Shown piece after piece: positions 27,660 through 56,333 of a stretch of DNA of 64,000 nt (its first letter is position 1; every line of letters starts with the position of its first letter). Where the stretch lies: NCBI GenBank assembly GCA_018798825.1, contig CP076355.1, positions 271,001 through 335,000 of the forward strand, written 5' to 3'. The notes below the pieces were generated by a model. The model did not search any database, was not told where the DNA came from, and saw nothing but the letters and a program-made list of their open reading frames with translations. Source of the DNA: Ochrobactrum sp. BTU1 (GTDB lineage Bacteria; Pseudomonadota; Alphaproteobacteria; Rhizobiales; Rhizobiaceae). A program made the position numbers and the translations under genes.

Positions 27660-27681
27660 CCTTGCGCGAAGCTTGTCACAT
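27660..27681 (-). promoter_or_regulatory. 11-bp tandem CAAGC-type motif upstream of motA
   Basis: Read leftward, two adjacent 11-mers ATGTGACAAGC and TTCGCGCAAGG put CAAG cores exactly 11 bp apart, ending 50 bp before the motA ATG. The same arrangement precedes six other flagellar units. It is a candidate binding site of the OmpR-type regulator FtcR; that link is inferred. Confidence 0.6.
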
Positions 27682-27700
27682 GACGCTAAAATGCATCAGC

Positions 27701-27722
27701 TTCGGACAAGCTTGAGGCTGCA
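27701..27722 (+). promoter_or_regulatory. CAAGC-type motif upstream of the DUF1217 gene
   Basis: TTCGGACAAGC followed by TTGAGGCTGCA, ending 33 bp before the TTG start of the rightward operon. With the motA copy it forms an inverted pair (AAGCTTGTC 27669-27677, GACAAGCTT 27705-27713) across the 146-bp divergent promoter region. Confidence 0.6.
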
Positions 27723-27755
27723 TAAAGGTTGCGAAAAATTGCAGGGGGTTCTCGC

Positions 27756-28544
27756 TTGGTCAACACGATGATGAGTTATCGGCTGATCGCGTCCGATATG
27801 ACGCGGTCGTTGCAGCGTGTTTCGAAGGAGCCGCTGGTCGAGCGAGAAACCGCCTATTACAAAGAGAACATCGGCAAGGTGAAATCCATTGATGATTTCA
27901 TGTCTGACACCCGACTCTATAACTATGCCATGAAGTCATTCGGCCTGGAAGACATGGCCTATGCTAAGGCTTTCGTTCGTAAGATACTCACTGAGGGCGT
28001 CAAAGACGATGACGCCATGGCGAACAAGCTGACCGACAAGCGGTATAAAGAGTTTGCGACGACATTCGATTTTGCAGGCAAGGGTGAAAAAGCCACCGAC
28101 GGCACGGCCGCCCAGCAAGGTGTGATGGATAAGTATATCCGTCAGACACTGGAGACAGAGGCTGGCAGCCAGAACGAGGGTGTCCGTCTGGCACTCTATT
28201 TCGAGCGCAAAGCGTCCACCATTACCAATGCGTACGAAATCCTTGGCGATAAGGCTTTGCTAACCGTTATGCAGACAACGTTTGGCTGGCCCTCGGTGAT
28301 GTCAAATGCCGACATCGACAAGCAAGCGAAGATGATCGAGGCCAAAGTCGATTTTTCGAGAATGTCAGATCCTGATTATGTATCGAAGATGATCTCGCGC
28401 TTCACGGCCATGTACGAGATGAACAATCCAACCACGAGCAGCCCTGCATCTATCGCCTCGCTGTTGTTGGGTGGCACGTCATCGGTCGGCATATCGTCGA
28501 GCATTCTGACTACTTTGCAGAACTTCAAGCCGGGCGGACGTTGA
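27756..28544 (+). CDS. DUF1217 flagellar protein
   Basis: 262 residues from a TTG start (VNTMMSYRLIASDMTRSLQRVSKEPLVERETAYYKENIGKVKSIDDFM). GGGGG lies at 27745-27749, a good distance for that start; ATG 27768 is the alternative. Several DUF1217 repeats of the form ..DFM.D.RLYNYAMKSFGLEDMAYAKAFVRKIL.. are visible. The family occurs only with alphaproteobacterial flagellar genes and its role is not established. It is first in the operon with flgF-fliI and separated from flgF by three bases. Confidence 0.88.
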   Translation: MVNTMMSYRLIASDMTRSLQRVSKEPLVERETAYYKENIGKVKSIDDFMSDTRLYNYAMKSFGLEDMAYAKAFVRKILTEGVKDDDAMANKLTDKRYKEFATTFDFAGKGEKATDGTAAQQGVMDKYIRQTLETEAGSQNEGVRLALYFERKASTITNAYEILGDKALLTVMQTTFGWPSVMSNADIDKQAKMIEAKVDFSRMSDPDYVSKMISRFTAMYEMNNPTTSSPASIASLLLGGTSSVGISSSILTTLQNFKPGGR

Positions 28545-28547
28545 TAA

Positions 28548-29279
28548 ATGCAAAATAATTCCATCTACGTAGGGCTGTCTTCCCTTGTCACACTTGAACG
28601 GCGGATGGATGCCATTGCGCATAATGTGGCAAATATTTCGACGCCGGGCTTTCGCGGCGAAGGCACGAAATTCAATACAATCGTCTCCAACAAGGCAAGC
28701 GAAGACGTAAGCTTCGCGACAGCAGGCAAGAGCTATATTCGCACAGAAGCGGGCTCAATGCTGGAAACCGGTAATCCTTTTGATGTTGCCGTCAAAGGCG
28801 ATGCCTGGATGTCGGTCAACACCCCGCAGGGTGTTGTCTATACTCGCGACGGCCGCATGAAGATGATGCCAACCGGTGAACTGGTGTCTGTCACAGGCAA
28901 TTCGGTTCTGGATGTGGGCGGTGCGCCTATCGTTCTCAATCCGGATGGCGGTGCGCCGAAGATTTCCAGTGACGGTGCTGTCTACCAGAACGGCGCACAG
29001 ATCGGTGCAATTGGCCTGTTCTCGATACCAGTAGATGCCGATCTCACCTATGCAGGCAATTCCGGTGTTGTACCAAGTAAGCCCGCGCAGGCTGTCGTTG
29101 ACGATATGAGTGTTGGAGTTGTGCAGGGGATGATCGAAGGTTCCAATGTTGATGGCATGACGGAAATGACCCGTCTCATCAGCGTTAGCCGAGCTTTTGA
29201 GCAGGTGAATAATCTACTTTCACAACAGGAAAGCACAGTGGCTGAAGCCATCAGGACGCTGGGCTCCAAAAACGGATGA
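28548..29279 (+). CDS. flgF: Flagellar proximal rod protein FlgF
   Basis: 243 residues with the rod/hook N-terminal domain (VTLERRMDAIAHNVANISTPGFRGEGTKF) and C-terminal coiled coil (MTEMTRLISVSRAFEQVNNLLSQQESTVAEAIRTLG). These are the ends that pack in the rod core. It is shorter and more divergent than FlgG (32625). The stop overlaps the fliI start by four bases. Confidence 0.95.
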   Translation: MQNNSIYVGLSSLVTLERRMDAIAHNVANISTPGFRGEGTKFNTIVSNKASEDVSFATAGKSYIRTEAGSMLETGNPFDVAVKGDAWMSVNTPQGVVYTRDGRMKMMPTGELVSVTGNSVLDVGGAPIVLNPDGGAPKISSDGAVYQNGAQIGAIGLFSIPVDADLTYAGNSGVVPSKPAQAVVDDMSVGVVQGMIEGSNVDGMTEMTRLISVSRAFEQVNNLLSQQESTVAEAIRTLGSKNG

Positions 29280-30625
29280 CTCCTGACTTACCGCTCGCGC
29301 GGCTCGCCGCCTTTGCCCGCCAACAATCGATAGCGCCAAAGTCTCTGACAGGAATTGGCGGTACGGTGAGCGATGTGTCGCGTTCGGCGATTGCAGTGCG
29401 GGGCCTCTCGCGCAATGCGCGCTTGGGTGATGCGGTGGCTATCCGCACTGACAGTGGTCAGAGCCTTGCTGAGATCATTCGTGTGGCTGATCATCAGGTG
29501 CTTGCGAAGCCGTTTGATGATCGTATAATTCCCTCACTTGGCGCTGCTGTGTTTGAAGAAGGGCCGCTTCGCATTCGGCCTGCGCCGGAATGGCGGGGCA
29601 GGGTAATCAATGCATTGGGCGAAGCGGTGGATGGAAAAGGCTCACTCCAACCCGGTTTACGCCCCATGGCATCGGAAAACCTTCCACCAGCTGCGTTGCG
29701 ACGCGCACGCGTGGATCGCGGATTGCGGACCGGCGTCAATGTAATCGATATTTTCACGCCGCTCTGTTTTGGGCAACGTATCGGCATTTTTGCAGGCTCA
29801 GGTGTGGGTAAATCCACCTTGCTCGCCATGATGACCCGCGCTGCCGATTTCGATACGGTTGTTCTGGCACTGACCGGTGAACGCGGTCGCGAAGTGCGCG
29901 AGATGCTCGAAGAAACAATGGCGGGGCATCTCGATAAAACGGTAACGGTGGTTGCGACCGGCGACGAAAGCCCGATGATGCGCCGCCTTGCCCCTAATAC
30001 AGCAACCGCGATTGCGGAATATTTCCGCGATCTTGGACAGAATGTCCTGCTGATTGTAGATTCCGTCACACGCTTTGCCCATGCTGCGCGCGAGGTGGCT
30101 ATTGCCGCGGAAGAGCCGCCGGTATCGCGGGGTTATCCGCCAAGCGTGTTCAGTCAGTTACCGCGTTTGCTAGAGCGCGCTGGTCCCGGCATTACTGACG
30201 CGGGTGGCAGTATCACGGGCATTTATTCGGTGCTGGTCGATGGTGACGATCACAATGACCCGGTCTCCGATACCATTCGCGGCACGTTGGATGGGCATAT
30301 TGTTCTTGATCGCGCAATTGCGGCTCAGGGACGTTATCCGGCAGTCGATATTCCTGCATCGGTTTCGCGTCTGGCAAAACATAACTGGACACCAGAACAG
30401 CGCAAGCTTGCCACTCAGTTGCGCAGTATGGTTGCACGTTTTGAAGAGACGCGCGATCTGCGTGCGATTGGTGCCTATCAGAAGGGTAATGACGGATTGC
30501 TGGATCAGGCCGTCGATTTTGTTCCGCGCATTTATGATGCGCTCCAACAATCGCCTGAGACAGGGCTGTCTGCTGACCCCTATCACGATCTTGCCGCGGC
30601 ACTGCGCGGGGAAAAACAGGCATGA
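29276..30625 (+). CDS. fliI: Flagellum-specific export ATPase FliI
   Basis: 449 residues of the F1-beta-like type III export ATPase family. Walker A is GSGVGKST (174-181), Walker B is VLLIVDSVTRFAHAAREV, and GEPPVSRGYPPSVFSQLPRLLERAG is the conserved catalytic region. FliI powers unfolding and delivery of export substrates with FliH and FliJ; candidates for these are at 40922 and 55801. ATGA overlaps link it to flgF before and the next gene after. Confidence 0.97.
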   Translation: MTPDLPLARLAAFARQQSIAPKSLTGIGGTVSDVSRSAIAVRGLSRNARLGDAVAIRTDSGQSLAEIIRVADHQVLAKPFDDRIIPSLGAAVFEEGPLRIRPAPEWRGRVINALGEAVDGKGSLQPGLRPMASENLPPAALRRARVDRGLRTGVNVIDIFTPLCFGQRIGIFAGSGVGKSTLLAMMTRAADFDTVVLALTGERGREVREMLEETMAGHLDKTVTVVATGDESPMMRRLAPNTATAIAEYFRDLGQNVLLIVDSVTRFAHAAREVAIAAEEPPVSRGYPPSVFSQLPRLLERAGPGITDAGGSITGIYSVLVDGDDHNDPVSDTIRGTLDGHIVLDRAIAAQGRYPAVDIPASVSRLAKHNWTPEQRKLATQLRSMVARFEETRDLRAIGAYQKGNDGLLDQAVDFVPRIYDALQQSPETGLSADPYHDLAAALRGEKQA

Positions 30626-31236
30626 AGGTCATGAAGACGGGTTCGCGTAAAACCATGGAAGAGTCCATTCTTGCTGACTTGGCAGCAGAGGTGGAAGCTG
30701 CGACTGTGAGGGAAACCAAAAAGCCGCAAAGTCAGGTTGACCGCTATCTCAAGATTGCGGCGATCACACTTGCTGTTGGCTGCTCGATGCTTCCGTTCGT
30801 CACCTATCTTCAGCGTGTCGATCTGAGCCAGGATAAGAAGACCGACAGCAAGATTGTTGATCCGCTTGACCGCTCCGACCAGAAGACCGTGCGTCATTTT
30901 CCGTCCTTCCGCCCGAATGATCAAGTCGCCCCGAGCGAGGATATCGACACCACCACAACAGGTTCGGTCATGTCGAACGGCAAGGGTTTGCCTGGAACAG
31001 GTGCGGGTAATGGTCGTGAAGGCGGCGAGAGGCAGACATTGCCAAAGCCGGTATTCGCATTGCGGGAAGTGGTCGGCGGTATGGCGATGATCGAAGATAC
31101 GTCGGGCTATTGGTTCGTGGAAAAGGGTTCGCTCCTGCCAGACGGCAGCCATCTGGTTTCCATCGGCCGGGGTAATCAGGTCGGAATGTGGAAGCTGACG
31201 ACATCATCTGGCGATGTGATCGAAATGCGCAGATGA
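30622..31236 (+). CDS. Single-pass membrane protein after fliI, unknown role
   Basis: 204 residues: a cytoplasmic helical tail (1-40), one membrane segment (about 42-62), then a polar, gly/thr-rich linker and a compact C-terminal domain (REVVGGMAMIEDTSGYWFVEKGSLLPDGSHLVSIGRGNQVGMWKLTTSSGDVIEMRR). It is translationally coupled to fliI (ATGA) and ends the DUF1217-flgF-fliI operon. It is not FliJ, which is soluble and helical. A periplasmic partner of the basal body is possible but unproven. Confidence 0.78.
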   Translation: MKVMKTGSRKTMEESILADLAAEVEAATVRETKKPQSQVDRYLKIAAITLAVGCSMLPFVTYLQRVDLSQDKKTDSKIVDPLDRSDQKTVRHFPSFRPNDQVAPSEDIDTTTTGSVMSNGKGLPGTGAGNGREGGERQTLPKPVFALREVVGGMAMIEDTSGYWFVEKGSLLPDGSHLVSIGRGNQVGMWKLTTSSGDVIEMRR

Positions 31237-31396
31237 GGCCATGAGCTGGCCTTTTTGAAGCTTGCGTAAATCTGCCTTGAAAACAGATTGGTTCACTTCT
31301 CTGAATCAGAGTCGATATTAATATAACTATCTGATTTAAATATATTTTATGAACGTTATCCAAGTGTTGGAATGCTCTGCCTTTGCGAAACCTTGC

Positions 31397-31418
31397 TCTA
31401 CGCAAGCTTGACGCAAGT
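31397..31418 (+). promoter_or_regulatory. 11-bp tandem repeat motif upstream of flgB
   Basis: TCTACGCAAGC followed by TTGACGCAAGT; the heptamer ACGCAAG recurs exactly 11 bp apart (31400 and 31411). It ends 41 bp before flgB. This is the clearest direct repeat of the shared flagellar motif. TTGACG at 31408 could double as a -35 box. Confidence 0.65.
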
Positions 31419-31459
31419 TCCGGCCTTTAAGTTAACGAACTGTAAAGGCGGGAAACTCA

Positions 31460-31840
31460 ATGAGCTCCATTCATCTTTTCGATCTGGCTGCAAGGCAGGC
31501 GCAGTGGTTGTCGGTACGACAGGCCACGGTTGCAGGCAATGTCGCCAATGCGAATACGCCAGATTTCCGGGCGCGCGACGTTCAGCCCTTCGCTGACGTG
31601 CTGGACAAAACCCAGCTCACCATGGCTGCAACAAGCTCGCAGCATCTAGAGGTTGAGGCGAATGGCATCGCAGGCGCGCGGCTGCGCCCGGAAGATATCA
31701 CCGAGCAGACCCATTCGGGCAATACGGTCGATGTCGAGCGAGAAATGATGAAGGCAGGCGAGATCTCGCGTGAATATTCGCTTAACACAAGCATCGTCAA
31801 AGCGTTTCACCGTATGATGCTGACTGTAGCGAAGGGGTAA
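31460..31840 (+). CDS. flgB: Flagellar proximal rod protein FlgB
   Basis: 126 residues. The N-terminus LAARQAQWLSVRQATVAGNVANANTPDFRARDVQPF is the rod-protein signature. The C-terminus EREMMKAGEISREYSLNTSIVKAFHRMML is the helical core. It heads a ten-gene operon (flgB to fliP) with many overlaps. The ribosome site AAGGCGGG lies just before ATG 31460. Confidence 0.96.
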   Translation: MSSIHLFDLAARQAQWLSVRQATVAGNVANANTPDFRARDVQPFADVLDKTQLTMAATSSQHLEVEANGIAGARLRPEDITEQTHSGNTVDVEREMMKAGEISREYSLNTSIVKAFHRMMLTVAKG

Positions 31841-31843
31841 GCC

Positions 31844-32263
31844 GTGTCGGATGCCTTGCAAAATACCCTCAAGATTGCCGCGTCAGGACTGTCGGCTCAG
31901 TCGACCCGGTTGCGCATCGTTTCTGAAAATCTTGCCAATGCGCAGGCGACAGCCAAGACCGCCGATACCGATCCTTACCGCCGCAAAACTGTATCCTTCC
32001 GCACTGAAATCGAACAGGGTACGGGTGCTGCCGAAGTCAGGGTTGCTGAAGTCGGTAAGGATACGTCGGCCTTTATCGAACAATATGACCCAAGCCATCC
32101 GGCAGCGGATGCGCGTGGCTATGTGAAATATCCAAACGTCAACATGGTCGTCGAGATGGCGGACATGCGTGAAGCTAACCGTTCTTACGAAGCCAATTTG
32201 CAGGTCGTCAAACAAGCCCGAGAGCTGATTTCAATGACCATCGATCTCCTGAGGAGCACATAA
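31844..32263 (+). CDS. flgC: Flagellar proximal rod protein FlgC
   Basis: 139 residues from GTG 31844, three bases after flgB. The N-terminus [44 protein letters not shown] and the C-terminal [29 protein letters not shown] are diagnostic. The stop codon shares a base with the fliE start. Confidence 0.96.
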
Positions 32264-32598
32264 TGTACGACTCAATCATGAGTGTTTCGGCGCGAAACGC
32301 TCTATCGCGTCTTTCTGAAACGGTTGCTGAAAAGAGCGTGGGCTCGACCTCGGCCCCGCAAGCTATTCCAACAACGTCCGGCGCTTCTTTCGGAGAAGTA
32401 CTGTCGCAGATGACGGATTCCGTCGGACAGAAGCTACAGGCCGCGGAAGCCAAATCGATCCAGGGCATCAAGGGCGACGCACCGCTGCGTGATGTGGTCG
32501 GTTCGGTCATGGAGGCTGAGCAGTCGCTTCAGACGGCAATCGCGATTCGTGACAAGATCGTACAGGCCTATCTCGAAATCAGCCGTATGCCGGTTTGA
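32263..32598 (+). CDS. fliE: Flagellar MS ring-rod junction protein FliE
   Basis: 111 residues, small and helical, with the family C-terminus [37 protein letters not shown]. FliE joins the MS ring to the rod and is exported first. It begins at the last base of the flgC stop and sits 26 bp before flgG. Confidence 0.95.
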
Positions 32599-32624
32599 GT
32601 GCTCTCAGTGAATAAGGACCTGCT

Positions 32625-33413
32625 ATGAAAGCCCTGACGATTGCCGCAACCGGTATGAACGCCCAGCAGCTCAATCTGGAAGTGATCGCCAACAACATCG
32701 CCAATATCAATACGACAGGCTTCAAGCGTGCCCGCGCTGAGTTCTCCGATCTTCTCTATCAATCGGAACGGACAGCTGGAGTGCCAAATCAGGCCAATCA
32801 GGCAATCGTTCCCGAAGGCGCGCTGGTCGGGCTTGGTGTTCAGACAGCCGCAGTGCGTAATCTGCATATTCAGGGCAGCTTCAATCAAACCGGCAATCCC
32901 TATGACGTGGCGCTGACGGGTCGCGGCTGGTTCCAAATCCAGAGCCCGACGGGAGAAACGCTTTACACGCGCGCTGGTGCATTCAACAAGAATGCCGACG
33001 GCCAGCTGGTAACGCTCGATGGCAATCCGGTCGAACCTGCGATCACCATTCCACCTGACGCCATTGAGGTTACCGTTACAGAGACCGGTCAGGTTTTCGC
33101 CAAGCTGCAGGATCAGGTCAATCAGGTCGATCTCGGTCAGCTGACACTTGCCAATTTCACCAACGAAGCCGGTCTGGAGCCACTGGGTGGCAATCTCTAC
33201 CGCGAAACGGAAGCCTCTGGTGGCCCGTTGGTCGGTGTCCCGGGTGATCCGGGCTATGGCGCGATCAAGCAGGGTTACCTCGAAGCATCAAACGTCGATC
33301 CGGTGAAGGAAATCACCGATTTGATTTCGGCACAGCGTGCCTATGAAATGAACTCGAAGGTCATTCAGGCAGCTGACGAAATGGCCGCTACTGTATCGAA
33401 GAATCTGCGCTAA
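32625..33413 (+). CDS. flgG: Flagellar distal rod protein FlgG
   Basis: 262 residues: N-terminus [46 protein letters not shown], central [46 protein letters not shown]-terminus [34 protein letters not shown]. All three match FlgG closely at the standard length. It is followed by an intergenic repeat and then flgA. Confidence 0.97.
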
Positions 33414-33415
33414 AG

Positions 33416-33492
33416 CATCAGAAATGCTTTCTTTTTGTTTCCACGCACATCTTGGTCCGAAAACCGGTTCCACTTTTCGGGATGTGCTCCAA
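33416..33492 (+). repeat. REP-like element between flgG and flgA
   Basis: Contains GCATCAGAAATGCTTTC, then TGGTCCGAAAACCGGTTCC and TTCGGGATGTGCTCC, matching the reverse complement of 23860-23907 at most positions. It lies inside an operon, immediately before the flgA start, where it could modulate translation or mRNA stability. Confidence 0.7.
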
Positions 33493-39089: not shown

Positions 39090-39132
39090 TTCTTCTTTTC
39101 TAAAAAGCTACTTCTTCAGTCATGTCGACACT

Positions 39133-39154
39133 TTCGCGCAAGCTTCGCGATCTA
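39133..39154 (+). promoter_or_regulatory. CAAGC-type 11-bp repeat motif upstream of fliF
   Basis: TTCGCGCAAGC followed by TTCGCGATCTA: the hexamer TTCGCG repeats exactly 11 bp apart. In Brucella the fliF promoter is the reported target of FtcR, so this copy best links the motif to that regulator (inference). It ends 16 bp before ATG 39171 and 31 bp before ATG 39186. Confidence 0.65.
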
Positions 39155-39170
39155 TTTTGTTCGCATCAGG

Positions 39171-40919
39171 ATGGCGGTGGTATCGATGCAGCAAAATTTC
39201 CAGCAATTACTCCAACAGCTTAAGGGAACGCTCGGCAAGCTTGGCGCGCGAAAACTTATTGCGCTCGGACTTGTCGGGGCTGCATTGATGGGCGCTATTC
39301 TTTATACGAGCGTCTATCTGAGTCGCCCCTCCTATGAGACACTTTATGTCGGCCTTTCGCGCGATGACGTGAATCGTATGGGTTTGGCGCTCGGTGAAGC
39401 GGGCATCGCTTTCGACGTAAAGTCTGACGGTTCATCGATCCTTGTTCCTGTCGGCAAGGCAGAACAGGCGCGTATGTATCTGGCTGAAAAAGGTCTGCCG
39501 ACGTCAAATAACGCCGGTTACGAGCTTTTCGACAATATGGGCTCGCTTGGCTTGACGTCGTTTATGCAGGAAATCACACATGTTCGTGCGCTTGAAGGTG
39601 AGATCGCCCGCACCATTCAGGCCATTCGAGGCGTCAAAGCTGCACGTGTCCACATCGTCATGGCCGAAAAAGGCTCGTTCCGTCGCGGTGACCAGAAGCC
39701 GTCTGCCTCGGTTGTGATCCGTGCTGAAGGCGGGTTTGCCGCTGAATCCGCACAGTCGATCCGCCAACTGGTTGCAGCCGCCGTACCATCGCTTGATGCT
39801 TCGTCCATTACGGTTCTCGATACCAATGGTCGTCTGCTCGCTTCGGCCGGGGAAGCTGCGAATGGTGCTGCTCTTCTGACTGCGTCGCTTGAACAGCAAG
39901 TGGCTGGCAATGTGGATGAGAGCATCCGCAAGGCGCTTGCTCCATATCTCGGTGTTGGTCACTTTCAGAGCAGTGTTCAGGCAACGCTTGATACCGACCG
40001 CCGTCAGACCAACGAAACTCAGTTCGATCCTGAATCGCGTGTTGAACGTTCTGTTCGTGTTGTTCGCGAAAGCGGGGACTCCCGCAACGCACGCAATGAC
40101 AATGCCACCGGCGTTGAGCAGAATATTCCGCAAGAAGAAATTCAGAACCGCAACGGCGAAAGCTCGTCTGAAAAGACCGATCGCCGCGAAGAACTCACTA
40201 ATTACGAAATGAACACCAAGACGGTGTCCACAGTCAGCGATGGCTACACCATCAAACGTCTGTCGATTGCCGTCGTTATCGATCAGGCGCGTCTGCTTGA
40301 AACGGCGGGCACCACGCCGCCTCCTGCAGATTTCGTCGATCAGCAGATCTTGAGAATCCGCGACCTCGTTGCAACGGCCGCCGGTCTCAATGCCGACCGT
40401 GGGGATGTGATCAACGTAACGGCTGTCAACTTTCTCAGCCCTGCTGGCGCGGATATGGAGCCGGTTTCCACGCCATGGTCCGAGCAGCTGATGCGTCAGA
40501 GTGGTTCTTACGTCAATGCGTTGGCAATTCTTGCTGCCGTTGCGTTCCTGATCTGGTTTGGTGTTCGTCCTTTGCTCCGCGATCAGAACGCAAAGCCATC
40601 CGGAACAGAAGTTGCGCTGCGTCAACCGGCTGATGTCGCTGTGCCAAACTTTGTTGGTGATGCACAGCAGGCCATCGCCGGTGAGGGCGCTAAGGCAGTG
40701 ATCGGTGGACCAGAAGCCTATGCTGATCAGATGAAGACGAGCCTTAGCGACCTGCGTCAGCGTATGCGTATGCCTGCTAAGCTACGTCTCGAACAGATGA
40801 TTGAGATGGATGAAGAGCGCGTCGCTGCAGTTCTCAAGCAATGGATCCACGAAACCGCTATCAAGCAGGATGCAGCATCAAACCAGCGATCTGTAATGCC
40901 GGAGCTCGAGGCTGCCTGA
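39171..40919 (+). CDS. fliF: Flagellar MS-ring protein FliF
   Basis: 582 residues with a membrane segment at each end (about 29-50 and 442-462) and a large periplasmic ring-building region (YVGLSRDDVNRMGLALGEAGIAFDVKSDGSSILVP, RALEGEIARTIQAIRGVKAARVHIVMAEK). The C-terminal tail (EEMIEMDEERVAAVLKQWIH-like) binds FliG. ATG 39171 is annotated; ATG 39186 (MQQNFQQLL) has a better GGTGG site. The latter would leave more room for the upstream motif, so it may be the true start. First gene of an operon reaching the transglycosylase. Confidence 0.95.
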   Translation: MAVVSMQQNFQQLLQQLKGTLGKLGARKLIALGLVGAALMGAILYTSVYLSRPSYETLYVGLSRDDVNRMGLALGEAGIAFDVKSDGSSILVPVGKAEQARMYLAEKGLPTSNNAGYELFDNMGSLGLTSFMQEITHVRALEGEIARTIQAIRGVKAARVHIVMAEKGSFRRGDQKPSASVVIRAEGGFAAESAQSIRQLVAAAVPSLDASSITVLDTNGRLLASAGEAANGAALLTASLEQQVAGNVDESIRKALAPYLGVGHFQSSVQATLDTDRRQTNETQFDPESRVERSVRVVRESGDSRNARNDNATGVEQNIPQEEIQNRNGESSSEKTDRREELTNYEMNTKTVSTVSDGYTIKRLSIAVVIDQARLLETAGTTPPPADFVDQQILRIRDLVATAAGLNADRGDVINVTAVNFLSPAGADMEPVSTPWSEQLMRQSGSYVNALAILAAVAFLIWFGVRPLLRDQNAKPSGTEVALRQPADVAVPNFVGDAQQAIAGEGAKAVIGGPEAYADQMKTSLSDLRQRMRMPAKLRLEQMIEMDEERVAAVLKQWIHETAIKQDAASNQRSVMPELEAA

Positions 40920-42735: not shown

Positions 42736-44036
42736 AGAAATTGGTAATGCGCGCACTGCTCGTACTTGTTGCAAGCCTTCCGCTGGCAAGCGGAGGTGTG
42801 GTGTCGTATGCGCAGACGCAAGCAGCAGACGAGCCACGCAGCCTGCCGGTGCTTGAACCCTATAAGCTTGTCCGCTCGCTGCGTATGTTGCAGGATCAGC
42901 TGGTTTCCGGAAAGCCAGAAGCTGTTGTTATGCTCAACAGGCTGTTGATTTTTGTGAGTGCTGATATGGAACGCGCTCCAAAAGAGTTTTGGGACAAGCC
43001 TGAGAATATTTATGCGGCCATCATCTATCTGTTTAACGGTGGTAACCCTGATGCTGTGAGAAAAGTGCTTGCTGGTTTTGATGGCAAGACTGTTCCGCCA
43101 GAGCTCGTCAAAGGTGCGCTTGCCTACGCATCGGGTCAGAATATTGAGGTGGTGAAGCTGTTCTCAATGCCGCTGTCACCACAGCTGCCAGCCGAGCTAC
43201 GCTCTTCCATCGTGTTAGTAACAGCTAGCCAGATGACGGCTTTTGATCCGGCAACAGCACTTCTGCGTCTTGATCAGGTGCGGCTCGATAGTCCGGGTAC
43301 GCTTTTTGAAGAAGCGGCTATTCGTCGTTCGATGCCGATTGCCGCCAAGCTCGGTGATGCAGACAAGATTAGAATGTTGTCACGCAATTACCTTCAACGC
43401 TTCCCGCGCTCTCCCTATATGAGGGATTTTATGAAGCAATTTGTGGACGCGGCGTTGAAACTCAATGACCGCATCGGCAATGCCGAACTGGTCAAGCTGA
43501 TCGGTACAGCTGATACGGTCATGCAATATTCACTTTATCTGCAAATTGCTCGCGGCGCTCTGGTGGATGGGCAGACAGATCGCGCTCGCTTCATGTCGGC
43601 TGAGGCAAGAAAGCTAGCCGACCATCTGAAAGCTGATCCGAGCAGAGCCAATCTTTATGCAGCGGCAAGTGATGTTGCTTCGGATTCCGCCAAAGATGCA
43701 TTGCGTGAATTGTCTCAGATTTCGCCTGATCGTCTGCAGGAACGTGACAGGCAGCTTCTACAGGCGGCCGAAGCTGTAGGATCGTTGGTGACGCGCAAGC
43801 CTCCCGTTGAGAGCATTGCAAAGCCAGCCAGAAGCGAAACTGACATTCCGGCAATGCCGATTGCTGACGGTGATGAGGCGCCCGCCGTGGCCAAGGCGCC
43901 AGAGACCGCTTCTCCTGCTGCCCGATGGAAGCCATCCCAGGCTGCAAAACCGGAAGATGATGTGCAGAAGACCATGGATGATGCGCGGCGCAAGCTTGCG
44001 GAAATTGATGCCTTGCTAGGAAAGACTATTCAATGA
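42732..44036 (+). CDS. motC: Periplasmic motility protein MotC
   Basis: 434 residues with a signal peptide (about 1-28, to SYAQTQA), then an all-helical region (YKLVRSLRMLQDQLVSGKPEAVVMLNRLLIFVSADMERAPKEFWDKPENIYAAIIYLFNGGNPDAVRKVL) and a variable pro/ala-rich tail. The same gene follows motB in Sinorhizobium, where MotC is needed for motor function and is stabilised by MotE. Overlaps motB and fliK by four bases each. Confidence 0.94.
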   Translation: MKKLVMRALLVLVASLPLASGGVVSYAQTQAADEPRSLPVLEPYKLVRSLRMLQDQLVSGKPEAVVMLNRLLIFVSADMERAPKEFWDKPENIYAAIIYLFNGGNPDAVRKVLAGFDGKTVPPELVKGALAYASGQNIEVVKLFSMPLSPQLPAELRSSIVLVTASQMTAFDPATALLRLDQVRLDSPGTLFEEAAIRRSMPIAAKLGDADKIRMLSRNYLQRFPRSPYMRDFMKQFVDAALKLNDRIGNAELVKLIGTADTVMQYSLYLQIARGALVDGQTDRARFMSAEARKLADHLKADPSRANLYAAASDVASDSAKDALRELSQISPDRLQERDRQLLQAAEAVGSLVTRKPPVESIAKPARSETDIPAMPIADGDEAPAVAKAPETASPAARWKPSQAAKPEDDVQKTMDDARRKLAEIDALLGKTIQ

Positions 44037-45310
44037 GCGTAGATCTTTTGCTCACTACGGCTGGAAGACTGGCTTCACTTGCCAGGAGTACAGGCGCCCA
44101 ACAGGGCGCTGTGGCAAAAGCCAACCGCGAAAATCAGGAACAGTCTGAATCGGACAAACTGTTTGGCGCATTGCTGGAAAAGTCTCAAAACAAGCTATCG
44201 CTTGAAGGCGAACAGAAGGATGAGACGCAGTCGGAAGATAGCGACAGAGCTGATCAGGATACGCCCGTTCAATCTTCGGCCTATGGTGTGTCGCAGAACC
44301 TGCTTGCACTTGCTGTAGGGTTCAGCAATCCGAAAGAAGACGACCAGCCAGCTGCACCTAATACTGCTACCCAGCCGTCGATAGATGTATCGGCGCTGGC
44401 AGATACCAAAGAGGCTGCAGACCTTGCACTGACGGCTGCAGTTGCCGATGGCCTGCCTATGCCTGATGCAGAGCCAAAGAAGGATCAGAAGGAAAACGTT
44501 CAGGCAAATAAGCAGACGCAAGCAACAGCCGATCCCAGGGGGGCGGCAAAGCCTGAAAATTTGTTCACTCACACTCGACCTGCTGCAACTCAAGATCAGC
44601 AGACTGACAGCGCCACAGACGGCTCTTCTGCACTGCCCAAGCCTGAGCTTTCACTTCAGTCCAGCAATGCTGCAGAAGCTGATCGTCCAAATGTTCAGCC
44701 GCAGCAGCAAACCGGGAAGTCTGCACCTGCAGACTATGTAAAGGCCCCTGCATCAACTACGCCAACGGCTGCAGCACGCATCGCGGATATCCAAGTCCTC
44801 TCTGAACGCAGCTTTGGTGCTGTGAAGACTTTGCAGATCAGGCTCGACCCGATTGAGCTTGGCAGGGTGACCGCTCGTATTCGTCTGGTTGCTGACAGTG
44901 TGGAAGTGCATCTGGTTGCTGACAAAGCAAATGCTGCCGACGCGCTGGCTGCCGATCGTTCAATGATCGAAAAAGCTTTGAAAGTCGCAGGCATTACCGA
45001 CGACACGAAAATTTCTGTCACAGTGACTGAACGTGGAGCAGCCAGTGCAGTTCAGCACAGCTCCGCAAGCCAAAGTGCGGGGCACCAACAGGCCAGCTCT
45101 CAACAGCAAGGCCAGCAGACCGCTGACATGCAAAATGGCTCGGATGGCCGGGGAAATTCGCAGGCACAATTTATGGGTGGTGAGGGCAGGCAGAATGGTG
45201 AATCTGGACAGGCAGACAGCAATAATGCACGCACTCGTAGACCGACTGAAGACAATGAACGCGAAATTTCTGGTTTTTCTGGCGGCTGGAATCGCGGCAT
45301 CGTCGTTTAG
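44033..45310 (+). CDS. fliK: Flagellar hook-length control protein FliK (rhizobial MotD)
   Basis: 425 residues, mostly low-complexity, gln/asp/ala-rich (exported ruler part). It has a conserved C-terminal core at about 255-335 (VKTLQIRLDPIELGRVTARIRLVADSVEVHLVADKANAADALAADRSMIEKALKVAG). In rhizobia this gene was first called motD and reassigned as FliK. It signals FlhB to switch export. The 3' end overlaps the next gene in another frame by 56 bp. Confidence 0.9.
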   Translation: MSVDLLLTTAGRLASLARSTGAQQGAVAKANRENQEQSESDKLFGALLEKSQNKLSLEGEQKDETQSEDSDRADQDTPVQSSAYGVSQNLLALAVGFSNPKEDDQPAAPNTATQPSIDVSALADTKEAADLALTAAVADGLPMPDAEPKKDQKENVQANKQTQATADPRGAAKPENLFTHTRPAATQDQQTDSATDGSSALPKPELSLQSSNAAEADRPNVQPQQQTGKSAPADYVKAPASTTPTAAARIADIQVLSERSFGAVKTLQIRLDPIELGRVTARIRLVADSVEVHLVADKANAADALAADRSMIEKALKVAGITDDTKISVTVTERGAASAVQHSSASQSAGHQQASSQQQGQQTADMQNGSDGRGNSQAQFMGGEGRQNGESGQADSNNARTRRPTEDNEREISGFSGGWNRGIVV

Positions 45311-46162: not shown

Positions 46163-46846
46163 ATGATCGTAGTCGTAGATGAGCGGAATATTGTGACTGA
46201 GGGGTACTCCTCTTGGTTCAGCCGAGAAGGCATCACGACAACCGGGTTCACACCATCCGATTTCAATGAATGGGTCGAAAGCGTCCCCCATCAGGATATT
46301 ATGGCTGTAGAAGCCTTTCTAATTGGCGAGTGTGAGGCTCAGAACGGTCTGCCAGCGCGTATTCGTGAACGCTGCAAGGCGCCTGTTATTGCCGTAAACG
46401 ACCGCCCGTCACTGGAGCACACTCTGGAGCTTTTTCAATCCGGGGTTGATGATGTCGTCCGCAAGCCAGTTCACGTCCGCGAAATCCTCGCCCGCATCAA
46501 CGCCATTCGCCGCCGAACAGGTGCTTCGGCTGCATCAGGTAATGATGGAACCGAGGTTGGACCGATCCGCGTTTTCTCCGATGGTCGTGATCCACAGATA
46601 AATGGTGTGGATTTTCCGTTGCCACGTCGTGAGCGCCGGATCCTTGAATATCTAATTGCAAACCGTGGTCGCCGCTTGAACAAGGCGCAGATTTTCAGCG
46701 CGATCTACGGCATTTTCGATAGCGAAGTCGAAGAGAATGTGGTCGAAAGCCATATTAGTAAGCTTCGCAAAAAATTGCGTGAAAAGCTTGGTTTTGATCC
46801 TGTTGATTCAAAGCGTTTTCTTGGATACTCAATTAATATCGATTGA
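46163..46846 (+). CDS. ftcR: Flagellar master regulator FtcR (OmpR-type; Rem homologue)
   Basis: 227 residues: a degenerate receiver-like domain ([29 protein letters not shown]..) and a C-terminal winged helix ([74 protein letters not shown]). The usual phosphorylatable Asp context is not clear, so it may act without a kinase. In Brucella FtcR activates fliF and the flagellar cascade; Rem does so in Sinorhizobium. No histidine kinase gene lies nearby. Confidence 0.93.
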
Positions 46847-46982
46847 GATTCGTGTCTTTTCTATCGAGCTTTTACAAAGCTCAAATCCAACAATTCGCGG
46901 TTTTTGAAGGTAGTCTTGTCCGGGCAAGCCTGAAACTGATTGTGTCCTCAGTAAAAGCGTAAAAAAATTCTAAGGCTACAGT

Positions 46983-47004
46983 TTCACGCAAGCGTGGCCC
47001 GATA
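46983..47004 (+). promoter_or_regulatory. CAAGC-type motif upstream of flgE
   Basis: TTCACGCAAGC then GTGGCCCGATA, ending 37 bp before ATG 47042. The first 11-mer differs from the fliF copy by one base; the second half is degenerate. Confidence 0.55.
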
Positions 47005-47041
47005 GCTTATCTGCGGATTCTCAAATTCTCAGGAGTTGCCA

Positions 47042-50852: not shown

Positions 50853-51022
50853 AACCATTTGAGCGCTATACGCTCTCTCGATGCATAAAGGTCGGTGTCA
50901 ATTATGAGGTCGACGAATCGTGCTTTTAATACGGTGGGGCGCTCACCCGACCTGAAGAAGAACATCACAAATCGGGCAGCGTGATGCGGTTCGTACGAGT
51001 GATGCCGGAAAACGGAGACTAA

Positions 51023-51367
51023 ATGTATCAGCTGCGCTACGAAGACGTCATGAATGATGATATGGCGAGCGCCAAGGAACGCGAGCGGATGCTTTTTGAT
51101 CGCTCGATTGAAATGCTCGCCGCTGCGAAAGCCCATGGTGCGGGATCGCGCGAGGGCATCGATGCTTCCTACTTCACAACCAAGCTGTGGACCACAATCA
51201 TTGAAGATCTTGGTTCAGAAGAGAATGTGCTTCCAAAAGAACTGAAAGCCGCAATCATTTCGGTTGGAATCTTCATTCTCAAAGAAATCGAGCAAATTCG
51301 ACAGGGTGAAAGCACCGATTACGACACTCTGATCGAGGTTACTCAATCTATACGTGACGGACTTTGA
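51023..51367 (+). CDS. flaF: Flagellar biosynthesis regulator FlaF
   Basis: 114 residues, helical ([80 protein letters not shown]), the alphaproteobacterial FlaF family. FlaF promotes flagellin secretion and opposes FlbT. GGAGA lies just before ATG. The 170 bp upstream carries no clear motif beyond a GAGCG/CGCTC palindrome at 50862-50876. Confidence 0.94.
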
Positions 51368-51368
51368 C

Positions 51369-51860
51369 ATGACGACGAGCGGCAAATCAGCGATCCGTCT
51401 TTCGCTACGTGCAGGCGAAAAGATTTATATCAACGGTGCGGTTTTGAAAGCTGACCGTAAGGTTTCGCTGGAGCTTTTGAACGACGCGACATTTCTTCTG
51501 GAAAACCACGTTTTGCAGCCGGAAGAGACGACATCCCCGCTGCGTCAGCTCTATTTTGCGGCACAGACGATCCTGATTGAGCCGGCTCTGAGGGAACAGG
51601 CGCGCAACACATTTGCACAGATGTTGAAGGGCATGTTTGCGACGTTCAAGGATGCGGAAATCCTCAATGCGCTCAAGCTCGTTGATGAGCTGGTGCATAA
51701 CGGGCGCGTCTTCGAGGCACTGAAAACAATTCGCACGCAATATAAGCGTGAGGCAGAGCTGATGGGTGAAAAAGGCCTGTCGGTGCCTGCCATACAAACA
51801 GAAAAGCCTATGGCATCGGCCCAAGAATCTAAGTCAGTTTTTGGAACCAGAGCCGTGTAA
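51369..51860 (+). CDS. flbT: Flagellin mRNA regulator FlbT
   Basis: 163 residues from ATG 51369 ([72 protein letters not shown]). In Caulobacter FlbT binds the flagellin mRNA 5' leader and limits translation. The frame opens at 51354 inside flaF; the chosen ATG is one base after the flaF stop. The 100-base-plus fliC leader in this window is a plausible target. Confidence 0.95.
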
Positions 51861-51872
51861 AAACAAACAGAT

Positions 51873-51941
51873 AGAGCATTTCCAGTAATTCAGCTTTAAC
51901 AGGAAATGCTCTAGAGCGTCCTTTGGGACAAACAGCGCTCT
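51873..51941 (+). repeat. Two adjacent palindromic repeat units between flbT and flgD
   Basis: AGAGCATTTCC (51873-51883) pairs with GGAAATGCTCT (51902-51912). Directly after, AGAGCG (51913-51918) pairs with CGCTCT (51936-51941). The GGAAATGCTCT end matches the 3' end of the repeat copy at 8290-8302. A similar GCG...GCGCTCTAA unit occurs near 15860-15888. Confidence 0.7.
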
Positions 51942-51954
51942 AAGGGGCAAGTCT

Positions 51955-52362
51955 ATGACGACAACATCGACAGTCGGCGCCAACAATACGGCAAACTCGT
52001 CATCAAGCAGCAGTTCCGCCGCCGCCAAGGCGAGTGTGGATTATGATTCCTTTCTGAAGCTTCTCGTTACCCAGATGCAGAACCAGGACCCCACACAGCC
52101 GATGGATGCGACGCAATATGTCTCGCAGCTTGCGACATTCTCCAATGTCGAACAGGCAGTGCAGATGAACAGCAAGCTCGAAACGCTGATCGCCAATTCG
52201 TCGCTTTCGCAGGCTGAAGGCTGGATTGGTCGCACGCTGACGAGTGCTGACGGCGCGGTTACGGGTGTGGTCAAGTCTGTCACGATTCAGTCTTCGGGGA
52301 TGCTTGCTGAACTCGAAGACGGCAAGACGATGCTGATCGGCCAGGGCGTCAAGATCAGTTAA
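51955..52362 (+). CDS. flgD: Hook-capping protein FlgD
   Basis: 135 residues: Ser-rich N-terminus, then the FlgD core YDSFLKLLVTQMQNQDPTQPMDATQYVSQLATFSNVEQAVQMNSKLETLI and a short C-terminal beta part (AEGWIGRTLTSADGAVTGVVKSVTIQSSGMLAELEDGKTMLIGQGVKIS). It is shorter than enteric FlgD (about 230), lacking the Ig-like domains, as in rhizobia. A hook-assembly scaffold. Confidence 0.94.
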   Translation: MTTTSTVGANNTANSSSSSSSAAAKASVDYDSFLKLLVTQMQNQDPTQPMDATQYVSQLATFSNVEQAVQMNSKLETLIANSSLSQAEGWIGRTLTSADGAVTGVVKSVTIQSSGMLAELEDGKTMLIGQGVKIS

Positions 52363-52492
52363 ACGATGTCTCCAAAACCGACTGCGGGTTTAGAGACAAT
52401 CGCATGCGCTAAAAATCTAGATTGAGACGAAGTTTCGATAGTTCATTTGAACCGAAACTGGGCAAAAGCGCTGTGCGCTGAGGACCTTACCT

Positions 52493-52759
52493 GTGAACGA
52501 AGCTGATGCGCTCGATATCGTAAATTCGGCGATCTGGACCGTGCTTATGGCGAGCGGTCCAGCCGTACTTGCGGCAATGCTTGCAGGTATCGGCATCGCG
52601 CTTTTTCAGGCTTTGACCCAGATTCAGGAAATGACGCTGACTTTCGTGCCGAAGATCATCGTTATTTTTGTGGTGCTTGCCTTTACCGCGCCATTTGTTG
52701 GCGCGCAGATCAACTCTTTCACGCTGCTGGCCTATTCGCGCATCGAAAAGGGTTTCTAG
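52493..52759 (+). CDS. fliQ: Flagellar export gate protein FliQ
   Basis: 88 residues from GTG 52493 with two membrane hairpin helices (AVLAAMLAGIGIALFQALTQIQEMTLTFVPKIIVIFVVLAFTAPF). Full length for the family. It completes the FliP-FliQ-FliR gate with genes at 37070 and 55017. GAGG precedes the start. Confidence 0.95.
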   Translation: MNEADALDIVNSAIWTVLMASGPAVLAAMLAGIGIALFQALTQIQEMTLTFVPKIIVIFVVLAFTAPFVGAQINSFTLLAYSRIEKGF

Positions 52760-52796
52760 AGCGCGTTCCGATCTGATTTTATCAGATCGACGCCCT
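52757..52796 (+). repeat. Short palindromic unit after fliQ
   Basis: Starts within the fliQ stop (TAGAGCG) and contains GATCTGA (52770-52776) with TCAGATC (52782-52788), a perfect 7-bp hairpin. It may act as a weak terminator or belong to the TAGAGCG repeat class seen at 8197. Confidence 0.55.
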
Positions 52797-52869
52797 AAGC
52801 CGTCTTATTGGAAACATAATCTTATCGATCTTCGTTTCACTCCGACAGGATTTTTGCTCTAACGCAGCC

Positions 52870-52891
52870 CTCGCGCAAGCTTCGTCGTTTA
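52870..52891 (+). promoter_or_regulatory. CAAGC-type motif upstream of flhA
   Basis: CTCGCGCAAGC followed by TTCGTCGTTTA, ending 27 bp before GTG 52919. The first unit differs from the fliF copy at one base. A TGATAAC stretch at about 52901-52907 could be the -10. Confidence 0.6.
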
Positions 52892-52918
52892 TGTTCCGTC
52901 TGATAACAGGAGACGGAC

Positions 52919-55009
52919 GTGCAGCAGGCAGTAGCTAAGCCATTGACAAAACGTGGAATTCTGACCGGTGGCGACATGGGCCTTGCTGCCGGTATCGTCA
53001 TTATTTTGACAGTGCTTTTCCTGCCGGTTCCAGCGGTTGTTCTGGATATCGGCCTTGCTTTCTCGATTGCTTTCTCCGTTCTTATCCTTATGGTTTCGCT
53101 GTGGATTCAGCGCCCGCTTGATTTTTCGGCGTTCCCGACGGTGCTGCTTATTGCGACCATGATGCGTCTGTCGCTCAATATTGCGACGACACGCGTGATC
53201 CTGACCCATGGTAACGAGGGCTATCTGGCGGCAGGCCATGTTATTCATGGCTTTTCGCAGTTTGTGATGGGCGGTGATTTTGTCATCGGTCTTGTGGTTT
53301 TCACCATCCTCATCATCGTCAACTTCCTGGTTATCACCAAGGGCGCGACACGTATTGCGGAAGTAGGTGCCCGCTTCACGCTCGATGCTATTCCCGGTAA
53401 GCAGATGGCGATTGACGCCGATCTTTCGTCGGGTCTGATCGACGAAAAGCAGGCACAGCATCGCCGTCGTGAACTGGAAGAAGAAAGCTCGTTCTTCGGT
53501 TCGATGGACGGTGCGTCCAAGTTCGTCCGCGGTGATGCGATTGCCGGTTTGATCATCACCGCTGTCAATATTTTCGGCGGGATTATCATTGGCGTTACCC
53601 GCCATGGTATGGATATTTCGGAAGCTGCTGACGTCTTCACCAAGCTCTCGGTTGGTGACGGTCTGGTTACGCAGATCCCTGCGCTGATCGTTTCGCTCGC
53701 AGCAGGTCTTCTGGTGTCCAAAGGCGGGACCCGCGGTTCCGCAGATCAGGCGATCTTTGGCCAGCTCGGCGCTTACCCCAAGGCGCTTTTGATTGCTGCC
53801 TTCCTTCTCTTTGTTCTCGGCATCATGCCAGGCCTCCCGGCTTTCCCGTTCTTCCTGCTTGGTGGTGCGATGGCATTTGTCGGTATTGCCGTGCCACGCC
53901 GTCAGGCGCGTCAGCGCGAGGCAGAAGAGGCAGAAGCACAGTCGAAGCAGCGTGACGCAGAAGACCTGGAACGCAACTCGGTCAAGGCTTCGCTGGAAAC
54001 CACACAGATTGAACTTTGCCTGGGCAAGCAGCTTTCCGCACGCCTTATTGCTTCGCAGCAGGAACTTGCGCACCGCGTTGCCAAGATGCGCAAGAAGTTT
54101 GCGCAGGAATATGGTTTCGTCATCCCAGAGATCAAAGTTACCGACGATATTTCGCTGCCGCCAAAGAGCTATCGCATCAAAATTCACGGTACCGCAGTTG
54201 CGAGCCATGAATTGCGGGTCGGTGAAATTCTCGTGGTGTTGGGCGAGCGTCCATTGCCATCCATTCCGGGTGAGGAAGTACGGGAACCAGCTTTCGGTAT
54301 GCGTGCTTATTCCGTGCCCGAGACTTTTGCTTCAGATCTTCGCCGCGATGGCTATATGACTGTCGACAACTTGTCGGTTCTGCTTACCCATCTTAGCGAA
54401 ATCGTGCGCAATAATCTGGCGCAGCTTCTCTCCTACAAGGATATGCGTATTCTGCTGGACCGCCTTGGTCCGGAATACCGCAAGCTTCTGGATGACATTT
54501 GCCCAGCCAATATTTCCTATTCTGGTTTGCAGGCAGTCTTGAAGCTGTTGCTTGCGGAGCGCGTCTCGATCCGCAATCTGCATCTTATTCTCGAATCCAT
54601 CGCCGAAATTGCACCTCTGGTCCGTCGACCGGAGATGATCGTCGAGCATGTTCGGATGCGGATGGCGCAGCAGATATGCGGCGATCTTTCAGACAATGGT
54701 GTTCTGAACGTGCTTCGTCTTGGTAATCGTTGGGACCTCGTGTTCCACCAGAGCCTCAAGCGCGACAACAAGGGTGAAATCGTCGAATTTGACATCGACC
54801 CGCGCCAGCTTGAGCAGTTCGGCACAGAAGCAACCACAGCAATCCGCAAACATTTCGATAGTGGCGAGCGTTTCGTCCTCGTTTCTTCGCCGGAAGCGCG
54901 CCCTTACATCCGAATGATTATCGAGCGGCTGTTTGCAACGCTTCCCGTGCTTTCACATGTGGAGATTGCGCGTGGTGTCGAAGTGAAATCGCTCGGCGCG
55001 ATTTCCTGA
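52919..55009 (+). CDS. flhA: Flagellar export gate protein FlhA
   Basis: 696 residues from GTG 52919. There are about eight membrane segments (residues 20-325) with the FHIPEP-family region ([33 protein letters not shown]) and [31 protein letters not shown] cytoplasmic nonameric-ring domain ends in [51 protein letters not shown] long open frame on the opposite strand here is a shadow. Followed by fliR after seven bases. Confidence 0.98.
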
Positions 55010-55016
55010 CGGGGGA

Positions 55017-55793
55017 GTGAACCCGTTGCCCATCACGCAACTGCCGATCAATGAACTTGTCTTTGCGGCCATGCTTGCATTCTGCCGCGTTGGCGCGTGT
55101 CTGATGCTGATGCCCGGCATTTCAAGCGGACGCATTCCCTTGCAGGTACGATTGTTTATCGCGCTTGCCTGTTCATTTGCGGTCTTGCCTTTGGTGATCC
55201 AAAATATTGCTCCGAGCCTTGATGGCAGCCATCCGCTCGCGATGTTCCGCCTCATGCTCAGCGAAATGTTCATCGGAGGGGTGATCGGGATTCTGGCGCA
55301 TATCTATTTTTGGGCATTGCAGTTTATGGCCAACATGATGGCAATGGCGGTTGGTTATTCGGGTACCCCAGCAGATGCGATTACGGAAGCAGAACCACAG
55401 GCAACGCTTGCGACCATTGTTACTTTCAGCGCGCTATTCCTATTTTTCGTCACGGATTTGCATCTTGAAATTCTGCGAGCACTGCTGAGCTCCTATACGG
55501 CTATCCCTGTTGACGGGCATTTCAGGCCTGATGCTGCGATGATCGACATCAGCGATGCGCTTTCTACAGCATTTCTGGCGACGTTACGCATCGCAGCACC
55601 CTTTATCGTGTTTGCGATTCTGGTCAATTTCGCCATCGGTCTTATCAATAAGCTGACGCCGACGATCCCGATCTACTTTGTGTCGATGCCCTTCGTGCTG
55701 GGCGGGGGGCTTCTGGTTGTCTACTTCATCCTGCCCGAATTGCTGCGTTTTTTCACCGGCGAAGCTGCAACGCAGCTGCGCGATCTGTTCTGA
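55017..55793 (+). CDS. fliR: Flagellar export gate protein FliR
   Basis: 258 residues from GTG 55017 with GGGGGAG before it. Six membrane segments; conserved FRLMLSEMFIGGVIGILAHIYFWALQFMANMMAMAVGYS and LRIAAPFIVFAILVNFAIGLINKLTPTIPIYFVSMPFVLGGGLLVVYFILPE. Last core gate gene, in an operon with flhA and the FliJ-like gene. Confidence 0.96.
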   Translation: MNPLPITQLPINELVFAAMLAFCRVGACLMLMPGISSGRIPLQVRLFIALACSFAVLPLVIQNIAPSLDGSHPLAMFRLMLSEMFIGGVIGILAHIYFWALQFMANMMAMAVGYSGTPADAITEAEPQATLATIVTFSALFLFFVTDLHLEILRALLSSYTAIPVDGHFRPDAAMIDISDALSTAFLATLRIAAPFIVFAILVNFAIGLINKLTPTIPIYFVSMPFVLGGGLLVVYFILPELLRFFTGEAATQLRDLF

Positions 55794-55800
55794 GGATTGC

Positions 55801-56217
55801 ATGGCTCAAACCAATGCCCGTAATCTGAAAAAGCTTATCACCTTGCAGAAGCTCGGCGCTGCACGGCTGGAAGCCTCGCTGTCTGTAACCAGCAACCGCA
55901 AGACTGTTCTGGATGAAGAACGTGACGCGCTGATCGCCATGCAGGATCGCCGTTATGACGGCGATGCCTTTACGGTCGATCCATCTCTGCTCATCAAACG
56001 GCTGGGGGCGAATGCGCTCGCAACAGACCAAATTGAGCAGCAGCTCGAATCAGAACGTATATGCCTTTTGAAAGAACAACGTCGGGTAGAACTTTTGGAA
56101 GATCGGCTCGAAACTGTTCGCAATGGTGCCGAAAGACGAGAGCTTGCAAGCCTAATTGAAGAGTTTGTTAGCCGGAAAACCACCGCGCCGCAAGACTATA
56201 AGTCGCGATCTCGATAG
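55801..56217 (+). CDS. FliJ-like small coiled-coil protein
   Basis: 138 residues, almost all helical and charged (MAQTNARNLKKLITLQKLGAARLEASLSVTSNRKTVLDEERDALIAM..DQIEQQLESERICLLKEQRRVELLEDRLETVRNGAERRELASLIEEF). It has no membrane segment. Length and two-helix layout fit FliJ, the FliI stalk and escort protein. No other fliJ is in the window. It follows fliR by seven bases with GAGG as ribosome site. Direct sequence similarity to FliJ is too weak to be sure. Confidence 0.68.
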   Translation: MAQTNARNLKKLITLQKLGAARLEASLSVTSNRKTVLDEERDALIAMQDRRYDGDAFTVDPSLLIKRLGANALATDQIEQQLESERICLLKEQRRVELLEDRLETVRNGAERRELASLIEEFVSRKTTAPQDYKSRSR

Positions 56218-56311
56218 AAAAAAAGTAATAAAATCAGTTGTTTGCAATAAATCTGGTGAGTTTGCGCTGGCCGCGTTGACCAAGGTTTTGTCATAAAATT
56301 GAAACTGATTC

Positions 56312-56333
56312 GTACCACAAGCTTCAGTCAAGT
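56312..56333 (+). promoter_or_regulatory. 11-bp tandem CAAG motif upstream of the rod-binding gene
   Basis: GTACCACAAGC followed by TTCAGTCAAGT, with CAAG cores 11 bp apart and TTGACA directly after. It ends 45 bp before ATG 56379. A further TTGACCAAGG lies at about 56276-56285, so the site may hold more units. Confidence 0.6.

Follow-up and report, generated by a model that had tools for sequence, protein, structure and literature searches.

An 11-bp direct repeat at a fixed distance from a -10 element precedes flagellar genes and is probably the FtcR operator in Ochrobactrum sp. BTU1 and related bacteria

A stretch of 64,000 nucleotides from Ochrobactrum sp. BTU1 (contig CP076355.1, positions 271,001 to 335,000; hereafter the window) carries a flagellar gene cluster together with ftcR, the gene of an OmpR/PhoB-type regulator. 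Seven transcription units of this cluster, beginning with motA, the DUF1217 gene, flgB, fliF, flgE, flhA and a rod-binding (flgJ-like) gene, are preceded by a box whose unit is the 11-bp direct repeat CMAGYYTCRCG|CAAGNYYSRNN. The box occupies the position of a -35 element and ends 3 nt before a sigma70-type -10 element (TAnnnT). The sites are present, their spacing is fixed and conserved, and their occurrence across genomes depends on the presence of ftcR. The motif is very probably the operator of a composite, activator-dependent promoter, with FtcR as its most likely reader, which would activate class II flagellar units.

In a preliminary description of the window, an 11-mer ending in CAAGC and followed in phase by a second, weaker 11-mer had been proposed for these seven units, and all seven 22-mers were found where, and on the strand on which, they had been placed. 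The proposed phase holds for motA, flgB and flgJ, where the two 11-mers are the two half-sites. It fails for fliF, flgE and flhA, where the partner half-site lies upstream and is weaker, and where the TA of the -10 element forms the end of the second 11-mer. To define the register, the flagellar clusters of 20 relatives were taken, orthologous genes were located by tblastn and the upstream regions were compared. Upstream of seven genes, the spacing between [AC]AG-N7-[CT]AAG and a following TAnnnT is exactly 10 nt in 43 cases, and no other spacing between 0 and 29 nt occurs more than twice. A gapped pattern run against 151 genomes of the family returned 86 rows, with a gap of 10 nt in 50 of them and zero to three at each of 20 other gaps. 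Among 59 sites picked regardless of the -10 element, the T, A and T of TAnnnT are present in 55, 56 and 46, respectively. The consensus of 58 sites outside the window reads CMAGYYTCRCG CAAGNYYSRNN N3 TAGNNT, the letters of its -10 being conditioned by the selection of these sites with TAnnnT present. CAAG and TAnnnT at the standard distance are found in 15/15 flgB and 18/20 flgE regions of the fetched clusters (window included). If TAnnnT is numbered -12 to -7, CAAG covers positions -26 to -23 and the partner half-site -37 to -34.

The repeat itself was examined in 66 sites. The best offset is 11 bp, with a mean of 2.5 of 4 CAAG matches and 24 sites having at least 3 of 4; an offset of 10 is next best (1.65) and an offset of 12 reaches 0.77. 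At offset 11, the half-site match is strong for motA (4.0) and flgB (3.79) and middling for flgE (2.21). The earlier idea of an OmpR/PhoB-type repeat thus fits the data in its best offset, its place in the -35 region and its fixed distance from the -10. No TTGACA/TATAAT promoter was found in 27500-28000, the sole stretch scanned for one, as would be expected if the box replaces the -35 element. In some more distant FtcR-positive genomes (L323, L324, L326, L331, L332), the -10 upstream of flhA reads CAnnnT, and YAAG is kept.

To compare the sites with chance, a 31-position matrix was trained on 43 sites that precede flgB, fliF, flgE and flhA in relatives not belonging to the genus; each gene of each genome contributed a single site, and sites having TA were preferred. 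When both strands of the window were scanned, the seven sites took ranks 1 to 7 (33.2 to 8.2) and the next position scored 7.7; the maximum reached by 20 first-order Markov sequences, each 64 kb long, was 16.9. Five sites, each comprising box and -10, are far above chance: fliF (39128..39158, plus strand, score 33.2, -10 TATTTT), with a degenerate upstream half-site (ACAC); flgE (46978..47008, plus, 30.5, TAGCTT), directly downstream of ftcR; flhA (52865..52895, plus, 28.2, TATGTT); flgB (31403..31433, plus, 25.3, TAAGTT), with CAAG at both half-sites; and motA (27645..27675, minus, 22.8). In the motA unit, half-sites 27665-27675 and 27654-27664 both read CAAG, 11 bp apart, and the -10 TAGAGT lies at 27645-27650, all on the minus strand. 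The weak box of the rod-binding gene (56318..56348, plus, 13.5, TAATGT), with CAAG at both half-sites, and that of the DUF1217 gene (27697..27729, plus, 8.2) are not significant by score alone; similar sites precede these genes in the nearest genera. The DUF1217 box deviates (CAGCTTCGGACAAGCTTG, then CATAAA), its -10-like sequence being 2 bp farther off than at the other sites, as is also the case in the flgJ boxes of some relatives. Since the matrix was trained on orthologues of flgB, fliF, flgE and flhA, the ranks of these four test conservation; motA, flgJ and DUF1217 contributed no training sites.

Across the whole genome (5.88 Mb), MAGNNTNRNGYAAGN10TANNNT gives three matches (motA, flgB, flgE) and its reversed control four, and YTCRCGCAAGNYTSRN5TANNNT with at most one mismatch gives four (fliF, flhA, motA, flgE) and its control one. 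With at most two mismatches, the latter pattern yields 28 matches versus 20 in the control, of which 6/28 are flagellar (flgB and flgJ included), so that at this setting nothing points to a wider regulon in the genome. The caution that AAGCTT alone would be uninformative was justified, as the word occurs 39 times when the window is read in one direction.

The distribution of the box among flagellar genes was followed in 80 named loci around ftcR, including those of Phyllobacterium, Mesorhizobium, Aquamicrobium and Bartonella, a gene being scored only if its start was aligned, on the same strand, and had enough upstream sequence. Matrix scores of at least 12 were obtained before flgE in 75/77 loci, flhA in 56/56 and fliF in 73/73, and before flgD and flgL in 0/68 and 0/78. 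The box had been described as absent before fliC, flgK, flaF and fliQ, and this extends to the relatives: scores of at least 12 occur in 0/77 (flgK), 1/79 (flaF) and 0/77 (fliQ) loci, and pattern matches in 0/12 fliC upstream regions. In Bartonella, the flgE site scores 9.7 to 21.4 (four loci, among those listed). The pattern requiring [AC]AG was found in 15/15 flgB, 3/6 motA, 1/6 DUF1217 and 9/18 flgJ upstream regions; it misses fliF (0/10) and flhA (0/20) because the upstream [AC]AG is demanded. It also matches 3/19 flgG, 1/17 flgC and 1/15 flgF regions, perhaps due to flgE-like paralogues picked by tblastn. Enrichment before flagellar genes and conservation in relatives, both named beforehand as checks, thus turned out favourable.

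With ftcR called at E values up to 1e-30, the gene was found in 129/151 genomes of the family and 83/297 of the order. The strict pattern MAGNYTCRCGYAAGN10TANNNT is present in 96/129 FtcR-positive versus 0/22 FtcR-negative family genomes, with 147 matches versus 2 for the reversed control; 130 of the 147 lie within 40 kb of ftcR, and 83 follow the gene immediately on its own strand. Of the other 17, 15 were examined, and seven precede genes matching flagellar proteins of the window while eight do not. At the level of the order, the pattern occurs in 28/83 FtcR-positive versus 3/214 FtcR-negative genomes (48 matches versus 2 in the control), and the next open frames after the three FtcR-negative matches resemble none of the window's flagellar proteins. 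In FtcR-positive genomes outside the family, 12 of 15 matches examined precede relatives of motA, flgE, DUF1217 or fliC. Within the genus (35 genomes), YTCRCGCAAGNYTSRN5TANNNT with at most one mismatch was found in 29/35 genomes, with 121 matches versus 35 for the reversed control. FtcR is not detectable in the six genomes without a match, and is present in three tested genomes with three matches each. Incomplete assembly could be an alternative cause where FtcR is not detectable in the genus.

The regulator itself is encoded at 46163..46846 on the plus strand (ftcR, also named rem or lafR) and consists of a pseudo-receiver and an OmpR/PhoB-type winged-helix domain. Its location inside the flagellar island, as first described, was borne out: the gene lies between a fliK-like gene (44033-45310, with a Flg_hook match) and flgE. 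The Trans_reg_C domain scores 52.4 bits, above the cut-off of 26.2, and Response_reg 24.0 bits, below its cut-off of 30.2, which may be expected for a pseudo-receiver. In an alignment of 44 of 55 sequences, the putative recognition helix (residues 189-205) shows a mean of 98% identity to the commonest residue and the receiver 77%, values raised by the removal of 11 sequences through frame, length or similarity filters. The phospho-acceptor aspartate is missing: residue 50, which the alignment pairs with the phospho-Asp of RegX3, is E in 36 and R in 8 of the 44. This agrees with Rem as an aspartate-less regulator active without phosphorylation (PMC9812332). A single-sequence AlphaFold2 model of FtcR was of low quality (mean predicted local distance difference test score, pLDDT, 48.8) and was not used.

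Several observations speak against FtcR as the reader of the box, or limit how far that reading extends. In B. melitensis, chromatin immunoprecipitation sequencing (ChIP-seq) of FtcR gave the motif TGTGGGCA in 118/363 peaks, and electrophoretic mobility shift assays (EMSA) at ftcR and betI were reported together with autoregulation (PMC9456535). Although autoregulation is reported there, no box precedes ftcR in the named loci (score of at least 12 in 0/80). The upstream half-site is poor at fliF (mean 1.6 of 4) and flhA (1.76 of 4), and CAAG and TAnnnT at the standard distance are found in only 13/20 flhA, 8/10 fliF, 7/18 flgJ and 3/6 motA regions. Outside the family, the strict pattern occurs in only 16/70 FtcR-positive genomes, and 3 of the 15 matches examined there have no window-like flagellar gene downstream. 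Two genomes of the genus (G448, G469) have no detectable FtcR, yet each holds one match resembling the motA site. The Fisher p values of the strict-pattern comparisons, 8e-12 for the family and 2e-14 for the order, overstate independence because the genomes are related. Moreover, 18 of the 22 FtcR-negative family genomes have no flhA match, and three of the remaining four have one only 32% identical.

Given how few FtcR-negative family genomes have flhA, flagellated genomes without FtcR were tested. An flhA relative is present in 30 of 63 FtcR-negative genomes searched (22 from the family and, from the order, 41 of 214), and a score of at least 12 upstream was found in 0/29 (one of the 30 was too short), three of the 29 being relatives of 30-32% identity that are perhaps not flagellar. 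In FtcR-positive genomes outside the family (38 of 70 searched), flhA is 59-73% identical to that of the window in 34/38, the exceptions being G116 (45%), G167 (34%), and G017 and G068 (no match). Upstream of this lateral type, of which 33 of the 34 found were scored, a score of at least 12 was reached in 10/33 cases. If many flhA genes are internal to operons, as is possible, this would account for the 23/33 without a strong box. The second flhA type of FtcR-positive genomes, 44-49% identical, reached this score in 0/12 cases (11 second flhA genes plus that of G116, the sole close flhA of its genome). Thus, with 10/33 versus 0/29 and 0/12, the box goes with the FtcR-linked flagellar system and not with flagella in general. 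The prediction of an FtcR (Rem) box is supported by this co-occurrence with ftcR rather than with flagella as such, and binding by FtcR is what we infer from it and from the genomic context.

Three other explanations were considered. It is improbable that another OmpR-family regulator, such as ChvI or CtrA, binds the repeat while ftcR merely shares the cluster. The location of ftcR within the cluster does confound linkage and function, but the box was not found before flhA of the other type in FtcR-positive genomes or before flhA of FtcR-negative ones. The CtrA site, TTAA-N7-TTAA, is unlike the box. Repeats of 11 bp are indeed used by other OmpR-type regulators of these bacteria, one example being the candidate site of FeuP, TTCA-N7-TTCA (PMC3616915); ChvI, however, affects motility via mirA, an inhibitor of Rem (PMC9731437). 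Two conserved elements at a fixed spacing could also suggest that CAAG and TAnnnT form the bipartite promoter of an alternative sigma factor acting without an activator, which we regard as very improbable. The 11-bp repetition is no feature of sigma factors, the downstream element resembles an ordinary sigma70 -10, the known consensus sequences of sigma54, extracytoplasmic function (ECF) and FliA factors do not match the box, and the distribution of the box follows ftcR. Least credible is that TGTGGGCA, for which ChIP-seq and EMSA with a mutated motif are published (PMC9456535), is the true flagellar FtcR site and the repeat has another role. The sole copy of TGTGGGCA in the window, at 5357, lies away from the flagellar cluster, and the flagellar stretches of 12/20 relatives, both same-genus ones included, have no copy.

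With FtcR as the reader, the following mechanism is proposed. The 11-bp direct repeat would replace the -35 element, with the sigma70-type -10 following 3 nt on. FtcR, known as Rem in rhizobia and as LafR in Bradyrhizobium, is an orphan activator of the OmpR/PhoB type, with a receiver that has no phospho-acceptor aspartate; it most likely binds as a head-to-tail dimer with one winged helix per repeat. Bound FtcR would hold RNA polymerase at a promoter without a good -35, as PhoB does at pho boxes, and the class II flagellar units for stator, rod, MS ring, hook and export gate would thereby be switched on. We further consider it likely that one code, CMAGYYTCRCG|CAAGNYYSRNN-N3-TAnnnT, serves as the common recognition site of FtcR, Rem and LafR in a large part of the order, that it marks the lateral-type class II regulon only, with no site before ftcR, and that it replaces TGTGGGCA as the flagellar FtcR site. 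In this proposal, which joins a near-invariant recognition helix with a receiver not phosphorylatable at the usual residue, control would therefore be exerted by the amount of FtcR and not by phosphorylation.

The inferred promoter touches the annotation of fliF. With the start as called mechanically (39171), the leader that follows the inferred -10 would be just a few bases long; the in-frame ATG at 39186 (region 39171-39188) is the more likely start, and fliF alignments of several relatives begin at residue 4 to 6 or later. As for the genomic setting, the window is part of contig 2 of a genome of four contigs, and Brucella (formerly Ochrobactrum) pseudogrignonensis, an environmental species, has an FtcR 100% identical to the one encoded here. 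In Phyllobacterium sp. 628 (L191), the record that carries ftcR is named plasmid p_3. In relatives, strict boxes were also seen outside the ftcR cluster, before two related proteins of 373-379 aa and one of 350 aa (L236, L237, L238), with no Pfam match on a scan of the L236 and L238 proteins, and before a PAS-domain protein (L250); further regulon members or chance are both possible for these genes.

FtcR, Rem and LafR are the master activators of flagella in many alphaproteobacteria. A box known base by base, with a fixed -10, would make their regulon predictable from sequence. It stands before flagellar gene groups and is conserved in many related bacteria of soil and plants; it questions the published motif TGTGGGCA and separates two flagellar systems within one cell. 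A close architectural parallel is the pho box, where PhoB activates class II promoters from 11-bp direct repeats that replace the -35, near upstream of the -10. The box shares with it the 11-bp direct repeats in the place of the -35 and the -10 close downstream, and differs in its sequence, in the FtcR pseudo-receiver without a phospho-Asp and in an upstream half-site that is often degenerate. Rem (Sinorhizobium, Agrobacterium, Rhizobium) and LafR (Bradyrhizobium) are, like FtcR, OmpR-like orphan regulators that activate class II or lateral flagellar genes: for Rem, activation of class II genes and activity without phosphorylation are described (PMC9812332), and LafR controls lateral, not polar, flagella (PMC8429497). 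They differ in that the literature searched, as far as its accessible portions go, gives no box for either, and no FtcR, Rem or LafR operator besides TGTGGGCA; an earlier description in the primary Rem and FtcR papers (2006, 2007) is possible. B. melitensis FtcR belongs to the same regulator family, and binding upstream of fliF, a direct target, is reported (PMC9456535, citing Leonard), whereas its motif TGTGGGCA is unrelated to the repeat and does not occur in the flagellar cluster studied here. The FeuP candidate site (PMC3616915), although of another sequence and before other target genes, is again an 11-bp repeat proposed for a rhizobial response regulator.

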